64,000 nucleotides of DNA from Shinella zoogloeoides (GTDB lineage Bacteria > Pseudomonadota > Alphaproteobacteria > Rhizobiales > Rhizobiaceae): NCBI RefSeq assembly GCF_020883495.1, contig NZ_CP086610.1, positions 1,779,501-1,843,500 on the forward strand. The letters are read 5' to 3'. A program made the translations under genes and the position numbers. Numbering within the stretch: the stretch's first letter is position 1; each line of letters begins with the position of its first letter. Of this stretch, positions 4,619-44,420 are shown one piece after another. The notes under the pieces were generated by a model. It saw nothing but the letters and a program-made list of their open reading frames with translations, did no database searches and was not told where the DNA came from.

Positions 4619-5227
4619 ATGACGTCCATCGCCCGCCTGATGGCCCTTGCCGCCCTCGCCTGCCTCCCCCTCCAGTCCGCCCATGCCGAGACCATCGCCT
4701 CCAAGAGCTATTCCTATTTTCCCATCGGCGGGCGCACGGCGGCCGAACTCGACGAGGAACTGTCGAAGCGCGGCCCGATGATGAAGCACAGCGGCGCGCG
4801 CCATCCAGGCGCCACGCGCATCAAATGGGGCGGCTCGGTCACCTATGTACGGCGCGGCGGCCGCTGCGCGGTGGGCGAGGCCAATGTCACGCTCTCCACC
4901 CAGATCATCCTGCCGCGCTGGAAGAACCGCAAGCGCGCCACACCTTCCCTCGCCCTCATCTGGGATACGCTCTCGCGCGATATCAAGCGCCATGAGGAGC
5001 GCCATGCGGAAATCGCGCGCAACCACGCCCGCGAATTGGAACGCACCTTGCGGAAACTGCCGCCGGAAGCCGATTGCGAGCGCATGCAGGCGCGCGTCGA
5101 CCGGGCGACCGCCGACGCCGTCGCCCGGCACGATGCCGATCAGGCGCGCTTCGACCGGATCGAGTCGAAGAACTTCAACGACCGGATGATGCGCCTGCTG
5201 ACGCACCGCCTCAAAAGCACCGACTGA
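4619..5227 (+). CDS. DUF922 secreted putative zinc-dependent protease
   Basis: 202 residues from the chosen ATG, which gives a clean signal peptide (MTSIARLMALAALACLPLQ, cleavage near SAHA). An in-frame ATG at 4595 would add eight polar residues; AAAGGA lies about 12 nt before 4619. The segment IKRHEERHAEIARNHARELE carries an HxxxH arrangement typical of DUF922, annotated as secreted zinc-dependent proteases. Conserved Tyr/Phe positions (KSYSYFPIGGRTAAEL) and two Cys residues also fit. Divergent from the folate operon. Substrate unknown; metalloprotease activity is a family-level prediction. Confidence 0.82.
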   Translation: MTSIARLMALAALACLPLQSAHAETIASKSYSYFPIGGRTAAELDEELSKRGPMMKHSGARHPGATRIKWGGSVTYVRRGGRCAVGEANVTLSTQIILPRWKNRKRATPSLALIWDTLSRDIKRHEERHAEIARNHARELERTLRKLPPEADCERMQARVDRATADAVARHDADQARFDRIESKNFNDRMMRLLTHRLKSTD

Positions 5228-5382
5228 GTAAAGCGCAGGCCGCTGCGCATGTATTTCCCGAAGTGTCGCCAGTGGAAAAGCCGCCCGTCAGGCGCGGGAC
5301 GGCATCGCATGCGTAAAATAACCGATGAATTCTAGCGATAGCGCAATTCCGCAAATCATCGTACTGTCAATCCAACAGTGAA

Positions 5383-5538
5383 CGGGAAGACGATCCTTCT
5401 TCCCGAAATGGCATGAAGCGGCTTCCAACAGGTTCTCCTGGCGCGTCCCAATAGAGCAGCAGGTGTCTCCTCCCTCTCCTGTCTGCGATGCGCCCTCCTG
5501 GCCTCGCTCGTCCTGACCGACCGGCGAGGCTCTTTTTT
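5383..5538 (+). ncRNA. Candidate trans-acting small RNA with anti-Shine-Dalgarno loop (alpha-r14/cuckoo-like)
   Basis: No protein gene fits 5228-5661. The plus strand shows ordered hairpins: a 7-bp stem CGGGAAG/CTTCCCG (5383-5389/5399-5405) and a short CAGG/CCTG stem (5429-5440). A third stem at 5456-5463/5478-5486 has a 14-nt loop that displays CTCCTCCC at 5467-5474. The end is an intrinsic terminator, GCCTCGC/GCGAGGC (5501-5507/5524-5530), followed by a T tract at 5533-5538. Further CTCCT motifs occur at 5435-5439 and 5494-5498. Looped CCUCCUCCC-type anti-Shine-Dalgarno motifs ending in a terminator define the alphaproteobacterial cuckoo family, including rhizobial alpha-r14 RNAs such as NfeR1. 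The 5' end is uncertain; the core could start near 5420. Confidence 0.55.
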
Positions 5539-5607
5539 GCCCGTCTATTCTACAGAAAACCGAAACTCTTCTTGCCGCCGGCAGAAGAAGACCGTCGCAC
5601 ACGCAAA

Positions 5608-5633
5608 CGGCCCGCATACTGCGATGCGGGCCG
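5608..5633 (-). terminator. Intrinsic terminator of the ferredoxin gene
   Basis: A perfect 10-bp stem (CGGCCCGCAT / ATGCGGGCCG, 6-nt loop) lies 28 nt beyond the ferredoxin stop. On the minus strand the stem is followed by a short TTT run. The T tract is weak, so efficiency is uncertain. Confidence 0.65.
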
Positions 5634-5661
5634 TTCGATCGAACATCGATGAAAAAAGATG

Positions 5662-5982
5662 TCAGGCCTGGCGTTCCGGCACGTGGACCACGAGCCCGTC
5701 GAGCGCATCCGACATCTTGATCTGACAGGAAAGACGCGAGGTGGGGCGAACCTCGTAGGCGAAGTCCAACATGTCCTCTTCCATCGCTTCCGGCGGGCCG
5801 ACGGTCGCGCTCCAGGCGTCGTCGACATAGACATGACAGGTCGCGCAGGCGCAGGCGCCGCCGCATTCGGCTTCGATGCCCGGCACGGAGTTGCGCACCG
5901 CGTTTTCCATGACCGTGGAGCCGTTGGCGACATCCAGTTCGTGGCGGGTGCCGTCGAAGGCGACGATGGTGAGTTTGCTCAT
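5662..5982 (-). CDS. 2Fe-2S ferredoxin (adrenodoxin-like)
   Basis: 106 residues, standard for bacterial adrenodoxin-type ferredoxins (FdxB/ferredoxin VI). Cluster ligands are visible in [15 protein letters not shown] (C-x5-C-x2-C) with the fourth Cys in [10 protein letters not shown]. The start [11 protein letters not shown] is chosen because upstream in-frame codons encode a low-quality Arg/Pro-rich extension. It is a soluble one-electron carrier, possibly for iron-sulfur assembly or a monooxygenase. No redox partner gene is adjacent, so the partner is unknown. Monocistronic, with its own terminator downstream. Confidence 0.93.
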
Positions 5983-6555: not shown

Positions 6556-7084
6556 TTGCCAATATCCTTATATACGCTACGTACGCTGTTTCGTTGTGAT
6601 GCACGCAGATGCCGGTGCGGCGGGGGCGCCTTGCGCCTGCCTTCGCCGGGGACACGGGAGTTTCATTCTGCGTGGCGGCGGCGCCTATCCGATTAAAAGA
6701 CGGCGCAAAATGGGCATGAATCGCAAACTATGGTTAACGGCTGAAAAATCGCCATTTTCTCAGGTTTTCCATCGCGATACAGATTCGGCCGATTTTAACT
6801 TCCTGTTAAGTTTCGGGCGAAGGGAGATGGCAATGAATTGTGTGATACAGGCTAATGTGTCACTACGATACGACCGGATACTCCCGGTGGATAAGCCGTG
6901 GGCGGAGATACACCGCTTCGCCTTTTCGGTCTATCGAGCGAATTTGGAATGAACGGCGGCCCGGACGCTGCTTGCCATGAGGGTATGCAGCAAGACCGGC
7001 CACCAACCGGACGGTTCGAATGCGCCCGAGCAGCGGCGGCGCGCATGAAGCCCGATCCCGGACATGGTAACGAGGCGTATCCGC
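6556..7084. other. 529-nt control region between the Hpt gene and GPR
   Basis: No convincing protein gene. It is visibly more AT-rich than its surroundings. It holds a TTAA-N7-TTAA box at 6795-6809 and another TTAAC half-site near 6734. A short open frame of 39 codons (6833-6952, start ATGAATTGT) has AGGGAG about 7 nt upstream. The Hpt promoter should lie in the left part and the GPR promoter in the right part. Confidence 0.6.
6795..6809 (+). promoter_or_regulatory. CtrA-type binding box TTAA-N7-TTAA
   Basis: The sequence TTAACTTCCTGTTAA matches the full CtrA consensus of two TTAA half-sites separated by exactly 7 nt. It lies 275 nt upstream of the GPR start and faces it. CtrA is the master cell-cycle regulator of alphaproteobacteria. 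Occupancy is inferred from motif match only. Confidence 0.6.
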
Positions 7085-10000
7085 ATGGCGACGAACAAGT
7101 CCACCGAGTCGATCGACGAGAAGGCCTTCCAGGCCCTTGAAGAAGCACTGAAAATCGACTTCGACGATCTGGTGCCGGAAACGCCTCCCAAGAAGGATGC
7201 TTCGGAGGCCCGCGTGTCTGAGCCAGCAAGCCGCATTCCAAACAAGACGCAGGAAAAGCCGGCCGGCCAGCCCGCATCCGGCGAGACCCCGCGCAGCCTG
7301 AACCCGGAACCCGCCCCCAAGGCGCCGGCCTTCACCCCGGCCAATGACGGCGCGCGCAAGACGCCGGCGGCGATCCTGAAATCGCTCGACATGCGCTCCT
7401 CGCGCGGCCCCATCCGCATGGCGATCCTCGCCTCCGTTCTCTGGGTCATCGGCGGCCTCGGCGTCGCGAACCTGCTTTATGCGCCGCAGATCTGGCAGAT
7501 CCGCTCGGTGGCGAACCTTGTCGCCCTGCCTGGCGCCATCGGCATGCTCGTCGCCATCCTCATGCCCATCATGCTCTTCTTCGCCTTCGCGGTGATGATC
7601 GCGCGCGCCCATGAACTGCGCAGCGCCGCCCGCTCCATGGCCGAAGTCGCCCTGCGCCTTTCCGAGCCGGAGACCGTCGCCAGCGACCGCATCATGTCGG
7701 TCGGCCAGGCCGTTCGCCGCGAAGTCTCGGCCATGAACGAAGGCATCGAGCGCACCATCGCCCGCGCCACCGAACTCGAGACCCTCGTGCATTCGGAAGT
7801 CAACGCGCTGGAACGCAGCTATTCCGACAACGAGATGCGCGTGCGCACGCTCGTTCAGGAACTCGGCTCCGAGCGCGAGGCGATCGTCAGCCATGCCGAG
7901 CGCATCCGCTCTTCCATTTCCGGCGCGCATGAACAGCTCAAGGACGAGCTGGCGAGTGCCGGCGACAGCATCACCGCGCGCATCGCGACCTCGGGCGAGG
8001 CCTTCGCCTCCATGCTCGACACGCGCGCCGCCTTGCTGATGGAACAGTCCGACAGCGCGACGCAGACCATCGGCGCCATGCTTTCGGCCCGCACCGACAG
8101 CCTGCTCTCCACGCTCAGCTCCTCGGGCGTGGCGCTCGCCAACGAATTCGACAACCGTCTCGATCTCCTGACCAAGAGCCTCGATTCCCGCGGCCGCGAC
8201 CTGCTTCAGCAGTTCGAGACGCGCGCCTCCTCGCTCGACACCAACACGGAAAAGCTGAACGCGGCGCTCAACGAACGCGCCAAGCAGCTCAACGAGACGC
8301 TGATCGCCCGCACCCGCGAGATCAGCGAAAGCCTGTCCATCGGCCAGCAGGCCGTGACCGGCGGGCTCGATCATGTGCTCCAGTCGATGAACGCCGCGCT
8401 CGACGAAAAGGGCGCGCAGTTCCGCCAGAGCCTCAAGAACGCCGCCGACGACACGGTCATGGACCTCGACCTGCGCTCCGGCTTCTTCGACGAACGCATG
8501 CAGGCCACCGTCGGCCAGATCGCCAGCGCCTTCGACCAGCGCGTGGAAGAGTTCGCGCAGGCCTTCGACCAGCGCGCCGGCTCGCTCGACTCCAAGCTGA
8601 TGGAGAGCCTTGCCCGCATCAACGAAACGGTCGCCAGCGGCCATGACTCGATCGACGGCATCCTGACCTCCAGCATCGACCGCCTCGGCAACACGCTCAC
8701 CGACCAGTCCTTCGCGCTGGCGACGACGCTCGCCACCAGCCAGGAAGTGCTGGAACACGCCGTTTCCGGCCATGCCGATGCGATCAGCAACGCCGTTGGC
8801 GGCGCGCATGAGCGCATGGGTGCGATCCTGACCGAAAAGTCCGCAGCCCTGCTCGGCGGCCTCGCCGATGTCCAGAACCGCATCGAAAGCGGCTTTGGCG
8901 TGCGGGCGGAAGCCCTGGCGGAAAGCGTTTCCGGCAGCGAGCGCCGTCTGGTGGAAGCGCTGGATTCGCGCGGCACGGCCATCGCCACCGATATTCAGGC
9001 CGCACAGGCCCGCATGGAAGAAGCGCTCGGCGCCCGCGCCGACGAGATCACCTCCACCATCGCGGCCAGCCACAACCGCCTCGACAGCGCGCTCACCGAG
9101 CGCACCGCCGCCCTTTCGGCCATGCTGAACGAGACCGGCAGCCAGCTCGAAGAGTCGGTCGGCACGGCGGCGAACCGCGTCGAGACCGCGCTGACGGGTG
9201 CCGCCCGCCAGATCGATGAGGTCATCACCGGCCGCACGGCCAACCTTGCCTCGGTGCTTTCCAACAGCGCCGGCTCCATGCAGTCGGCCATCGATTTCGC
9301 CGCCAACCGCGTCGAAAGCGTGCTGACCGAAGGCAGCCAGCAGCTTGGCGGCGTCCTGCACGGCCAGGCCGCCGAATTCGCCGACGCCTTCTCCGGCCGC
9401 GCCGCCGGCATCGCCGAAGCCCTGTCCGGCCGCGCCTCGGAGCTTGCCGGCTCGCTCGTCTCCACCCATGAGCAGATCCGCGCGACGCTCGACGACCGCA
9501 TCAACGCGATCAACGTCGCCATCGCCGAAGGCCGCAACCAGCTTACCGAAACGCTCAACGATCAGGCGACCTCCATCGGCACCTCGATCGCCACCAGCGC
9601 CGGCATGCTGGAAATGTCGCTGGAGCAGCACGAGGAAGCCCTTCGCCGCACCATCGACGGCAGCGCCGCCCTTCTCGATCAGCGCGTGCGCGAAAGCGCC
9701 GGGGCCGTGGCCGAGCGCCTCGGCGAGACCACCGCGCAGATCGCGGAAGCGGCAAACGCCTTCGGCACGCGCATGGAACAGACCGTCGACAGCGTCGCGA
9801 GCCGCTTCGACACGACGGGCAGCAAGCTGGAAGAAAACCTCGGCAAGCTGGAAGCCCGTATCGAGCACAGCGTCGAGCATGTCTCCGGCATCGTCGACAC
9901 CGCCGCCTCGCGCATTTCCGACACGCTTTCCGAGCGCCTGACCGAAATCGACCGCGTGGGCAGCGACGTGTCGCTGCGCGTCTCCGACGCCCTCTCCCGC

Positions 10001-12913
10001 CCGATCGCCGAAGTCGACCGCATCGGCGACGAGACGACCGCCCGCATCGCGGCGGCGCTTGCCGGCCGTGTCGGCGATATCGAGCGCATTAGCGCGAATG
10101 CCGCCGACCGTATCGAAGGCGCGCTTTCCGGCCGTCTGGACGATATCGAACGCGTCAGCGCCGCCGCGGCGGATCGCATCGAAGGCACGCTGTCCAGCCG
10201 CCTTGGCGATATCGAGCGGGTAACCGGCAATGCCGCCGAGCGCATCGACGGCACCCTCGCCAACCGCGCCGGCCAGATCGAACGTCTTGCCGAAGAAGCG
10301 GCCGAACGTATCGATGGCGCTCTTGCGAACCGCACCAGCCATATCGCCCGCGTCACCGGGGAAGCCGCCGAGCGCATCGACGGCACGCTTGCCAGCCGCG
10401 CCGGCGACATCGAGCGCCTTTCCGGCGAGGCCGCCGACCGTATCGCCGCGACCATCGACGAGAAGACCGGCCGCATCGAGGAACGCCTCGGCACGATGGA
10501 CCGGGCGCTCACCATCGGTCTCGACAGCGTGAACCGCACCATCGACGGCAAGGCCGCCGGCCTTGCCCAGACGCTGCGCGACGCCGTCTCGCAGGCCGCC
10601 CAGGACATGGACGCCGAGGCGATCCGCTCGGCCCAGTCGCTCGCCAAGACCGGCGAGGAATTCGCCAGCCTCTCCACCTCCCTGCGCGGCGCGGTTTCCC
10701 GCGCGGCCCAGGAAATGGGTGTCGAAGCCCAGCGCGCCGCCGAGAACATCGCCAAGACCGGCGAGGAATTCGCGGAGAACCTGTCGGCCCGCAACGAAGC
10801 CTTCACCCGCGCCGTCGAGGAGACCACCTCCTCCGCCGTCGCCCGCTTCGCGGAGACGGAAGGCCGCCTCGCCAGCCAGGCGCAGTCCCTGCACACCGGC
10901 CTCGGCGATGCCGAGAAAGCGCTGGAAGCGCGCGGCGCTTCCATCCGCTCGGCCCTCGACGACCGCACGCGCGAACTCAACTCCATGCTGGCCAGCCGCA
11001 CGGAAGAACTGTCGCGCCTCATCAACGAGGAAGCCCGCCCGGTCATCGAGGACTACGCCGCCGCCGGCCGCGAAGCCGCCGACCGCATCACCGGCGTCGC
11101 CCGCGACAGCGCCGAACGCCTGCGCAACGAGAACGCCGCGCTCATCAACGCGATCTCCGCCCGCACGGCCGACACGCTCGCCGCCATTTCCGCCCGCACG
11201 GAGGAAGCCGCCGGCGCGATGCAGGCCATCGAAACCGGCCTGCAGGCCAATGTCGAAAGCTTGATCGCCCGCCTTTCGGACAGCAACGGCGCGATTGCCG
11301 GCATGGTCGATGCGGCGAGCCAAACGCTCGGCGCCATCGACGGCCGCCTGACCTCGACGGCCGAGCGCTTCTCCACTTCCGCCGAGCGCGCCTCCGACAT
11401 GGTCGCGACCACCTCGCGCCTGCTGGAAGGCAAGGTCGACCGCCTCTCCGACATCTCCGCCGGCACGCTCTCGCAGATCGGCGGCATCGTCGGCCGCTTC
11501 GAGGACCACTCGAAGATCCTGTCGCAGGCCTCCGACCTCCTCGCCGCCGCCCAGTCGAACCTCGTTTCGACGCTGGAAGAGCGGCAGGACGCGCTGCGTT
11601 CGCTCTCCATCGGCCTCGTCCAGCGTTCGGAAGAGATCGAGAAGACCATGCAGTCGCTGGAAGGCATGGTCGAAGGCGCCTTCAGCCGCGCCGAAGAGCG
11701 TTCGAACCTGATCGCCGGCAACCTGCGCGGCGGCATCCAGTCGTCCTTCGCCGAAGTCGGCCGCATTCTCGGCGAGACCGAGAAGCGCGCGGAAGTCGCG
11801 GCCACGACGCTGCGCGACCAGCTCGTCAAGGCCGGCGAGGAAGCGGGCCAGTCCGTCGAGGGCGCCTTCGTGCGCGCCGAAGAGCGGACCAAGGAAGTGG
11901 CGAGCCGCCTGCGCGGCAGCGTCGGCGCCTCGCTCTCCGATGTCGACCGCCTGCTTTCCGAATCCGGCCAGAAGTCCGAAACCGCCACCGCCGCCATGCG
12001 CGATGCGATGCGCGAGGCCGTCGAGGAAGCCATCGGCAAGTTCTCCGGCGCGACCGAGGAAATCCGCCGCGCCGCCGGCGAGATCCGCAAGGAACTCGAC
12101 CAGACGCGCGGCGAACTGAAGCGCAGCGCCTTCGACCTGCCGGAAGAAGCCAAGGAAAACGCCGCCCAGATGCGCCGCGCCGTCAGCGAGCAGATCAAGG
12201 CCCTTCAGGACCTCTCCGACATCATCGGCAAGTCCTCGTCGGCGCTGGAAGTCTCCCGCCCCGTCGCGCAGGCCGCCGCAGCACAGGTCGCCCAGGCGAT
12301 CCAGCCGGTGCAGCAGCAGCCCCGCATCGAACCGCGCCGCGAGGAGCAGACGCCGCTGCGCGGCAGCCTCGGCCTCGAGCGTGCGGCCGCCGCCACCGTG
12401 CCGCAGCGCACGCAGCCTGTGCCCGCCGAGGCCGAAGCCAAGGCGGCCGGCGAAGGCGGCTGGATGCGCGACCTCCTGCGCGGCGCAGTTTCGCGTGAGG
12501 AAGCCCAATTCGGTCAGCCGCGCAGCGAAGGCCAGGCTGCCCGCCCGGCCGACAACCGCAACCCCCGCCACGTCGTCGAATCGCTGAACTCGCTGTCCGT
12601 CGATATCGCCCGCGCCATCGATCACGATGCCTCGGTCGACCTGTGGCGCCGCTACCAGCGCGGCGAGCGCGACGTCTTCACACGCCGCCTCTACACGCTG
12701 AAGGGCCAGCAGACCTTCGACGAGATCAAGCGCAAATACGAGCGTGAGCCGGAGTTCCGCACCGCCGTCGACCGCTACATCTCGGACTTCGAGAAGCTGC
12801 TCGCCGACGTTGCCCGCAACGACCGCGACAAGGTGATGACGCAGACCTACCTCACGTCGGATACCGGCAAGGTCTACACCATGCTGGCCCATGCCGCCGG
12901 CCGCTTCAACTGA
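7085..12913 (+). CDS. Growth Pole Ring protein (GPR / RgsE), giant apolipoprotein-like membrane coiled-coil protein
   Basis: 1,942 residues. In Agrobacterium GPR forms a ring at the growing pole, is essential for polar growth and rod shape, and has apolipoprotein-like repeats; RgsE is the Sinorhizobium counterpart. Here residues 1-110 are acidic then Pro-rich. Two membrane segments follow (about 112-131 and 151-172), then about 1,600 residues of Ala/Glu/Arg/Ser-rich helix with almost no Pro. Nine tandem 22-residue units occupy residues 942-1139. A Gln/Pro-rich linker (about 1740-1790) leads to a conserved C-terminal domain (RHVVESLNSLSVDIARAI onward, ending MLAHAAGRFN). The ATG at 7085 is preferred over 7064 because GAGG lies 9 nt upstream. 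A terminator follows. Identification rests on length, topology and repeat pattern. Confidence 0.88.
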   Translation: MATNKSTESIDEKAFQALEEALKIDFDDLVPETPPKKDASEARVSEPASRIPNKTQEKPAGQPASGETPRSLNPEPAPKAPAFTPANDGARKTPAAILKSLDMRSSRGPIRMAILASVLWVIGGLGVANLLYAPQIWQIRSVANLVALPGAIGMLVAILMPIMLFFAFAVMIARAHELRSAARSMAEVALRLSEPETVASDRIMSVGQAVRREVSAMNEGIERTIARATELETLVHSEVNALERSYSDNEMRVRTLVQELGSEREAIVSHAERIRSSISGAHEQLKDELASAGDSITARIATSGEAFASMLDTRAALLMEQSDSATQTIGAMLSARTDSLLSTLSSSGVALANEFDNRLDLLTKSLDSRGRDLLQQFETRASSLDTNTEKLNAALNERAKQLNETLIARTREISESLSIGQQAVTGGLDHVLQSMNAALDEKGAQFRQSLKNAADDTVMDLDLRSGFFDERMQATVGQIASAFDQRVEEFAQAFDQRAGSLDSKLMESLARINETVASGHDSIDGILTSSIDRLGNTLTDQSFALATTLATSQEVLEHAVSGHADAISNAVGGAHERMGAILTEKSAALLGGLADVQNRIESGFGVRAEALAESVSGSERRLVEALDSRGTAIATDIQAAQARMEEALGARADEITSTIAASHNRLDSALTERTAALSAMLNETGSQLEESVGTAANRVETALTGAARQIDEVITGRTANLASVLSNSAGSMQSAIDFAANRVESVLTEGSQQLGGVLHGQAAEFADAFSGRAAGIAEALSGRASELAGSLVSTHEQIRATLDDRINAINVAIAEGRNQLTETLNDQATSIGTSIATSAGMLEMSLEQHEEALRRTIDGSAALLDQRVRESAGAVAERLGETTAQIAEAANAFGTRMEQTVDSVASRFDTTGSKLEENLGKLEARIEHSVEHVSGIVDTAASRISDTLSERLTEIDRVGSDVSLRVSDALSRPIAEVDRIGDETTARIAAALAGRVGDIERISANAADRIEGALSGRLDDIERVSAAAADRIEGTLSSRLGDIERVTGNAAERIDGTLANRAGQIERLAEEAAERIDGALANRTSHIARVTGEAAERIDGTLASRAGDIERLSGEAADRIAATIDEKTGRIEERLGTMDRALTIGLDSVNRTIDGKAAGLAQTLRDAVSQAAQDMDAEAIRSAQSLAKTGEEFASLSTSLRGAVSRAAQEMGVEAQRAAENIAKTGEEFAENLSARNEAFTRAVEETTSSAVARFAETEGRLASQAQSLHTGLGDAEKALEARGASIRSALDDRTRELNSMLASRTEELSRLINEEARPVIEDYAAAGREAADRITGVARDSAERLRNENAALINAISARTADTLAAISARTEEAAGAMQAIETGLQANVESLIARLSDSNGAIAGMVDAASQTLGAIDGRLTSTAERFSTSAERASDMVATTSRLLEGKVDRLSDISAGTLSQIGGIVGRFEDHSKILSQASDLLAAAQSNLVSTLEERQDALRSLSIGLVQRSEEIEKTMQSLEGMVEGAFSRAEERSNLIAGNLRGGIQSSFAEVGRILGETEKRAEVAATTLRDQLVKAGEEAGQSVEGAFVRAEERTKEVASRLRGSVGASLSDVDRLLSESGQKSETATAAMRDAMREAVEEAIGKFSGATEEIRRAAGEIRKELDQTRGELKRSAFDLPEEAKENAAQMRRAVSEQIKALQDLSDIIGKSSSALEVSRPVAQAAAAQVAQAIQPVQQQPRIEPRREEQTPLRGSLGLERAAAATVPQRTQPVPAEAEAKAAGEGGWMRDLLRGAVSREEAQFGQPRSEGQAARPADNRNPRHVVESLNSLSVDIARAIDHDASVDLWRRYQRGERDVFTRRLYTLKGQQTFDEIKRKYEREPEFRTAVDRYISDFEKLLADVARNDRDKVMTQTYLTSDTGKVYTMLAHAAGRFN
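9908..10501 (+). repeat. Nine in-frame 66-bp units encoding 22-residue coil repeats within GPR
   Basis: Units run without gaps, with the pattern (D/E)RI(D/E)GxLxxRxxxIERxxxxA; for example ERIDGTLANRAGQIERL and ERIDGTLASRAGDIERL. The 22-residue period equals two 11-residue turns, the apolipoprotein A/E periodicity. DNA copies are diverged, so this is protein-level repetition rather than recent duplication. The central units (about 10106-10435) are most alike. Confidence 0.85.
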
Positions 12914-44342: not shown

Positions 44343-44420
44343 ATGCAAACCGGATTTCTCGAAATGACGATGATCGCCGTCCTGATGCTGAGCAGCCTCG
44401 CCTGGATCCAGCCCTTCTGA
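44343..44420 (+). CDS. Possible 25-residue single-span membrane protein
   Basis: The frame encodes MQTGFLEMTMIAVLMLSSLA followed by WIQPF and TGA. Residues 8-21 form a short hydrophobic helix flanked by a Glu and a Trp/Gln/Pro end. The decisive evidence is AGGAGGAG at 44329-44336, ending 6 nt before the ATG, among the best ribosome binding sites in the window. It lies between the GGEEF terminator and the small L,D-transpeptidase gene, so it needs its own promoter. Too short to classify; function unknown. Confidence 0.5.
   Translation: MQTGFLEMTMIAVLMLSSLAWIQPF

Follow-up and report, generated by a model that had tools for sequence, protein, structure and literature searches.

A copy of the Atu_C7 small RNA in Shinella zoogloeoides with a covarying structure and conserved CU-rich motifs

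Layout of the gap between the DUF922 and ferredoxin genes

The window, by which we mean the whole 64,000-nucleotide stretch of DNA analyzed, contains a gene-free gap at positions 5228-5661, bounded upstream by a plus-strand DUF922 gene (PF06037, 4619..5227, Pfam 154.4 bits) and downstream by a convergent minus-strand 2Fe-2S ferredoxin gene (PF00111, 5662..5982) that ends at 5662. A preliminary description, made from the letters alone, had reported this gap together with ordered hairpins, a 14-nt loop, flanking CTCCT motifs, and a T-tract terminator, and both the coordinates and the description of these parts agreed with the sequence and its fold. Three hairpins follow one another in the gap, all on the plus strand. 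The first, probably close to where the RNA begins (5383..5405, pairing 5383-5390 with 5398-5405), was predicted by folding; a stem of at least 5 bp was present in this stretch in all 21 Shinella genomes, not always the same one, and outside the genus the sequence of the region differs. The first anti-Shine-Dalgarno motif, TTCTCCT (5433..5439, with CTCCT at 5435-5439), forms part of a lead that precedes a two-part stem (5440..5494). The outer part of this stem pairs 5440-5447 with 5487-5494, and the inner part pairs 5456-5459 with 5483-5486 and 5460-5463 with 5478-5481, enclosing the 14-nt loop TGTCTCCTCCCTCT (5464..5477) with the anti-Shine-Dalgarno sequence CTCCTCCC at 5467-5474. A third, weaker motif, CTCCT (5495..5499), occupies the linker ahead of an intrinsic terminator (5501..5538; hairpin 5501-5508/5523-5530, T6 at 5533-5538), which was recognized from the fold and whose stem is kept in relatives. 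A consensus terminator scan missed the 5501-5530 hairpin but reported one at 5523-5541 that overlaps it.

By itself the loop string is not unusual; CCTCCCTC was observed three times in the window against an expectation of 2.93. The fold of the single sequence was moderately better than that of shuffled sequences (z = -2.45), with 5 of 200 shuffles equally good. That the structure is above chance follows from the Rfam match and from covariation in relatives, both described below. Closer to the ferredoxin gene, a strong hairpin, GGCCCGCAT..ATGCGGGCC, was noticed at 5606-5635, and this is probably the terminator of that convergent gene.

The locus belongs to the Atu_C7 family

Using an Rfam scan of the whole window, RF02501 (Atu_C7) was found to be the sole match at gathering thresholds, scoring 54.7 bits (cut-off, 45) at an E value of 1.4e-9. 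The match covers 5429-5535 on the plus strand and marks the conserved body of the RNA (5429..5538), and in the alignment the outer and inner stems, the C-rich loop, and the terminator of the model are all matched by the window copy. The Atu_C7 RNA of A. tumefaciens has the same stem, with a UUUCCUCCCU loop in the consensus, and the same terminator. The window copy matches the model from position 50 onward, leaving the 5' part (positions 1-49) unmatched; matches in the other 20 Shinella genomes, including that of a very close relative (L003), run from 1 to 157. R1, a covariance model of our own built from 32 distinct C7 sequences, gave the window copy 121.2 bits, the window sequence itself being in the building set. 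No conserved reading frame was found in the C7 RNA across the 21 Shinella genomes: a small open reading frame (ORF) was considered and rejected, as the frame starting from an ATG common in the genus ranged from 4 to at least 56 codons and the ATG was absent in two of the 21.

Assignment of the locus to the Atu_C7 family, as a new copy in a previously catalogued family, is well supported, and the locus is a real, conserved small RNA (sRNA) gene distinct from the alpha-r14 RNAs. The RNA had been called likely undescribed, which was wrong because of the RF02501 match and the data published on C7 of A. tumefaciens. There, the C7 gene was reported to lie between atu1350 and atu1351 and to give a Northern signal, and the RNA was enriched 20-fold with Hfq in minimal medium; its level was lower without hfq in that medium and comparable with and without hfq in complex medium (PMC4201532). 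The A. tumefaciens transcript C1_1345805R, of 155 nt and with two bands at roughly 200 and 140 nt (PMC3738593), is probably the same RNA, judging by strand, size, and place. Within the literature searched, no target or mechanism of C7 was found, and the original RNA-seq and cuckoo papers may say more. The original RNA-seq paper on A. tumefaciens C7 is reportedly that of Wilms et al. 2012.

Covariation of the stems and conservation of the unpaired motifs

Two alignments were used to examine the stems across relatives, and in both cases the structure was drawn from the same sequences and the rows are related, so that the measures lean positive. In the first (A1), a MAFFT alignment of 32 distinct relatives made without structure and after two duplicates (L022 and L030) were dropped, 94.3% of cells were paired, compared with 33.0 to 55.1% when the partners were slid. 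Changes on both sides were seen in 12 of the 27 pairs (32 such cells), and none of 500 shuffles scored as high on four measures, while one did on the fifth (further pair types). In the second (A2), which was larger (80 distinct rows) and was fitted to the model, the paired fraction of cells was 95.8%, compared with 33.5 to 53.1% when slid; 14 of the 27 pairs changed on both sides (112 cells), and no shuffle among 500 reached the observed value on any of the five measures. Double changes in A2 affected three of the eight outer pairs and, in the two inner segments, three of four and four of four pairs.

Motif counts were made from the 79 full-length distinct rows, excluding L074, which is cut by the end of its locus. 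TTCTCC in the lead and CCTCCC in the loop were each found in 78 of the 79 relatives; the exception in both cases, L027, carries close variants. The third motif, CCTCCT, was present in only 33 of the 79. Mean information content was 1.91 bits for the lead (over GTTCTCCT), 1.71 for the loop, and 1.25 for the third motif, falling to 0.54 in the inner linker and 0.61 in the terminator-loop stretch; for the stems it was 1.80 (outer), 1.29 (inner), and 1.82 (terminator). Among the unpaired parts, conservation is thus highest in the lead and loop motifs. In the body of the RNA, their predicted mean unpaired probabilities were 0.84 and 0.97 (78 rows each), against 0.41 for the whole RNA. For the longer RNA of the window, 5383-5540, the predicted unpaired probability was 0.94 for the loop and 0.85 for the third motif, but only 0.57 for the lead. 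Retention of the loop motif and of compensatory stem changes in relatives, proposed beforehand as a test of the sRNA, was therefore observed, at 78 of 79 rows and 14 of 27 pairs, and the conserved motif and compensatory stems support the earlier claim that the plus strand encodes an sRNA whose loop is C-rich and anti-Shine-Dalgarno and which ends in an intrinsic terminator.

Distribution and genomic context of C7

To assess how widespread C7 is, genomes were searched with RF02501 and with R1. RF02501 matched 27 of 101 genomes, including all 21 Shinella genomes examined, and none of 14 control genomes. A search of the order with the same model matched 10 of 397 genomes, one of which (L035, 27 bits) sits in an apparent coding sequence and was judged false. 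With R1, 68 of 297 genomes of the family were matched, the weakest at 31.9 bits (G053) and far from the best DUF922 match of its genome. Of 289 genomes from the class, R1 matched three, including the window's own; the other two were judged chance matches: L116, when read, was the terminator behind an apparent flagellin gene, and L117 has the match length and genus of L116. The large searches were run with stricter filters, with the loss of weak matches. Every genome with a match had a single C7 copy, and on these searches C7 appears convincingly only in Rhizobiaceae. For the locus run with R1, 92 of the 115 loci were used, leaving out L035, L036, and 21 repeats of genomes already included.

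The position of C7 relative to its neighbors was examined in 110 loci where the RNA had been located, several genomes being counted more than once. A DUF922 gene was found upstream on the same strand at less than 800 nt in 109 of these, the exception (L058) being cut upstream, and the ferredoxin gene was found downstream on the opposite strand within 1,500 nt in 104. Of the six loci without that ferredoxin, L008, L055, and L092 come from one genome, in which the ferredoxin is not adjacent; L010 and L108 likewise belong to a single genome, and L097 lies at a contig end. Family, structure, conservation, and synteny of the C7 locus are established.

A further search for DUF922 covered 32 genomes of the family without an RF02501 match, and 24 of the 30 loci returned were examined. 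In eight of the 24 loci, none with a clear C7, the DUF922 and ferredoxin matches were 16 to 154 bp apart; in another eight they were 655 to 1,234 bp apart with other sequence between them, and in the remaining eight no ferredoxin match was present in the stretch. With filters off, R1 returned one divergent candidate among the 24 loci (L118, 29.1 bits, E value 6.3e-6), the next best having an E value of 0.016. This much degenerated C7-like sequence (L118:1066-1173, minus strand) lies downstream of DUF922 in another genus and is possibly a decaying or early form of C7. Gain of C7 at the DUF922-ferredoxin site and loss elsewhere both fit these observations. Beyond the ferredoxin gene, the window holds an open frame of 1,949 amino acids with a repetitive look (7064-12913), probably a coiled-coil protein, which is mirrored by a 2,020-amino-acid open frame on the other strand.

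Origin of the transcript

Upstream of the first hairpin, a 29-nt plus-strand block, TTCTAGCGATAGCGCAATTCCGCAAATCA (5330..5358), was identified by its conservation and is probably a promoter or activator site. Its core, TTYTWGCSATRGC, was present in all 21 Shinella genomes, 101 to 106 nt ahead of the TTCTCC motif, and 28 nt of the block (5331-5358) are unique in the genome even with up to three mismatches allowed. Outside the genus, the start of the block can be recognized in just a few loci. The block is nearly palindromic around GCGCAATTCCGC. A consensus scan found no sigma-70 site in 5200-5700, and the block may represent an activator-dependent promoter.

An alternative is that C7 has no promoter of its own and is released from the 3' untranslated region of the DUF922 mRNA. 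DUF922 lies upstream on the same strand at 109 of the 110 loci, and the authors of the study on C1_1345805R, probably C7, attributed its two bands to two promoters or to processing (PMC3738593); these observations speak for such an origin. It is, however, at odds with the near-fixed distance of the upstream block in 21 of 21 Shinella genomes and with a terminator-like hairpin after the DUF922 stop (5233-5248), though this hairpin is without a strong T-run; we regard this alternative as improbable. With either origin, the RNA would act in trans.

Candidate targets

Complements of the two motifs were searched for ahead of ATG codons in the genome. AGGAGAAC was found 37 times, against once for a reversed-pattern control, and GGGAGGA 115 times, against 21. 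The excess is no proof of targeting, because any Shine-Dalgarno-like pattern yields it. Candidates were fetched for 30 of the 37 AGGAGAAC sites and 30 of the 115 GGGAGGA sites, and 14 of these 60 had a frame of 31 codons or fewer. Five of the 60 were put to Pfam and corresponded to ribosomal protein L27, a ClpX-like protein, a probable SdhB, and two solute-binding proteins, among which no regulon was apparent. Target lists drawn from such Shine-Dalgarno-like sites were rejected as too generic.

A gene at 44343 had been put forward as a possible partner. This 25-residue ORF, MQTGFLEMTMIAVLMLSSLAWIQPF, has a strong AGGAGGAG site and looks like a small membrane protein. The strength of the site was borne out, as GGAGGAG gave predicted duplex energies of -14.9 kcal/mol with the loop motif and of -15.0 and -17.4 kcal/mol with the other two. 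The site is good but not distinctive, since 5 of 46 mechanically called window ORFs score lower with the loop (duplex ranking, best of up to six starts); a like site is present in 10 window ORFs of at least 25 codons. The gene is thus one of many possible partners, and the duplex ranking of the 46 ORFs is not evidence of targets.

Proposed mode of action

We infer transcription of C7 in Shinella, its promoter, its pairing, and its repressive effect, and on balance we favor the reading that the locus is a Shinella copy of C7 with its own promoter, which acts in trans, is probably associated with Hfq, and blocks translation of several mRNAs. Transcription would begin near 5330-5380 and end at the terminator at 5538, giving an RNA of about 160 nt. 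Its stems would hold CU-rich single strands open, namely, the lead TTCTCC, the loop CCTCCC, and the weaker third motif, and these could pair with G-rich ribosome-binding sites such as AGGAG and GGGAGGA, thereby blocking translation. By analogy, an anti-Shine-Dalgarno mechanism is likely. The exposed, conserved CU-rich motif that marks RNAs of this class was found in both lead and loop, and drifting stems combined with open CU-rich seeds are typical of sRNAs known to pair at ribosome-binding sites. Two precedents have been described: NfeR1, an alpha-r14 RNA, silences ntrB through such pairing (PMC10746234), and the C-rich loops of sX13 act against G-rich motifs near start sites (PMC3771888).

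The CU-rich motifs might instead bind a protein or titrate a G-rich RNA as a sponge, leaving the ribosome-binding sites of mRNAs aside. Strong motif conservation would fit any single partner, and Hfq association is known for C7; similarly shaped RNAs, on the other hand, pair with ribosome-binding-site regions, and we consider this alternative unlikely. A conserved terminator and structure with no regulatory role is highly improbable: conservation of the terminator stem is among the highest in the RNA (1.82 bits), but 78 of the 79 relatives retain TTCTCC, and as many retain the unpaired CCTCCC, while the stems drift by compensation.

Relation to alpha-r14 and other known RNAs

That the locus is an alpha-r14/cuckoo RNA of the NfeR1 family, as initially proposed, can practically be dismissed: like members of that family, it has short stems, a terminator, and a loop carrying the 8-nt CTCCTCCC, but a covariance scan of 5228-5661 with RF02344 gave no match at an E value of 10 or below, and in the reverse test R1 did not match the three alpha-r14 loci of the same genome (L037 to L039) at 0.001 or below. 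Alpha-r14 RNAs are described as carrying CCUCCUCCC in each of three hairpins (PMC10746234). Here, CTCCTCCC was found in one hairpin loop only, and the other two motifs in the window are only CTCCT and lie outside the hairpin loops of the conserved body. RF02344 matched 33 of 41 genomes, our own included, at an E value of 0.001 or below, 26 of the 41 over the cut-off, with two to six matches per Shinella genome at the same E value. Two of the three copies in our genome lie on the same strand with about 140 bp between them. Because RF02344 misses the gap and matches elsewhere, and R1 misses the alpha-r14 loci, C7 and alpha-r14 are separate families that share CTCCTCCC. In mode of action the locus may nevertheless resemble alpha-r14: both RNAs expose CUCCUCCC in a loop, and pairing with ribosome-binding sites is likely for both. 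They differ in that NfeR1 is called Hfq independent (PMC10746234) and C7 is linked to Hfq.

Two further RNAs invite comparison. The sX13 RNA of Xanthomonas (RF02232) shares C-rich loops and a terminator of similar shape with C7, but it is encoded beside polA and acts without Hfq (PMC3771888), unlike the Hfq-linked C7. Homology to sX13 was rejected, as the full-length match was weak (19.6 bits; cut-off, 50). RF02232 matched none of 61 genomes at an E value of 0.001 or below, and the same search matched 1 of 14 control genomes below the cut-off. PmaR (C10) of A. tumefaciens likewise has a C-rich accessible loop and occurs in the same host group. PmaR is reported only from Agrobacterium and one Rhizobium strain, and according to its authors its seed is no anti-Shine-Dalgarno sequence and most of its targets are positively regulated.

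Implications for regulation in Rhizobiaceae

With this analysis, the Atu_C7 family gains a covariation-backed structure and two defined candidate seeds. Two distinct RNA families in the same genomes carry an identical anti-Shine-Dalgarno string, and if both act on ribosome-binding sites, this raises the question of how such generic seeds are kept from silencing everything; a further question is whether Hfq dependence separates C7 from alpha-r14. As a tentative proposal, C7 might serve Rhizobiaceae as a second anti-Shine-Dalgarno regulator, specific to the lineage, linked to Hfq, located between DUF922 and ferredoxin genes, and working beside the multicopy alpha-r14, its two near-invariant motifs GUUCUCCU and CCUCCC reading two classes of sites, AGGAGAAC and GGGAGGA, respectively. 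If this is true, one RNA could brake two sets of mRNAs.
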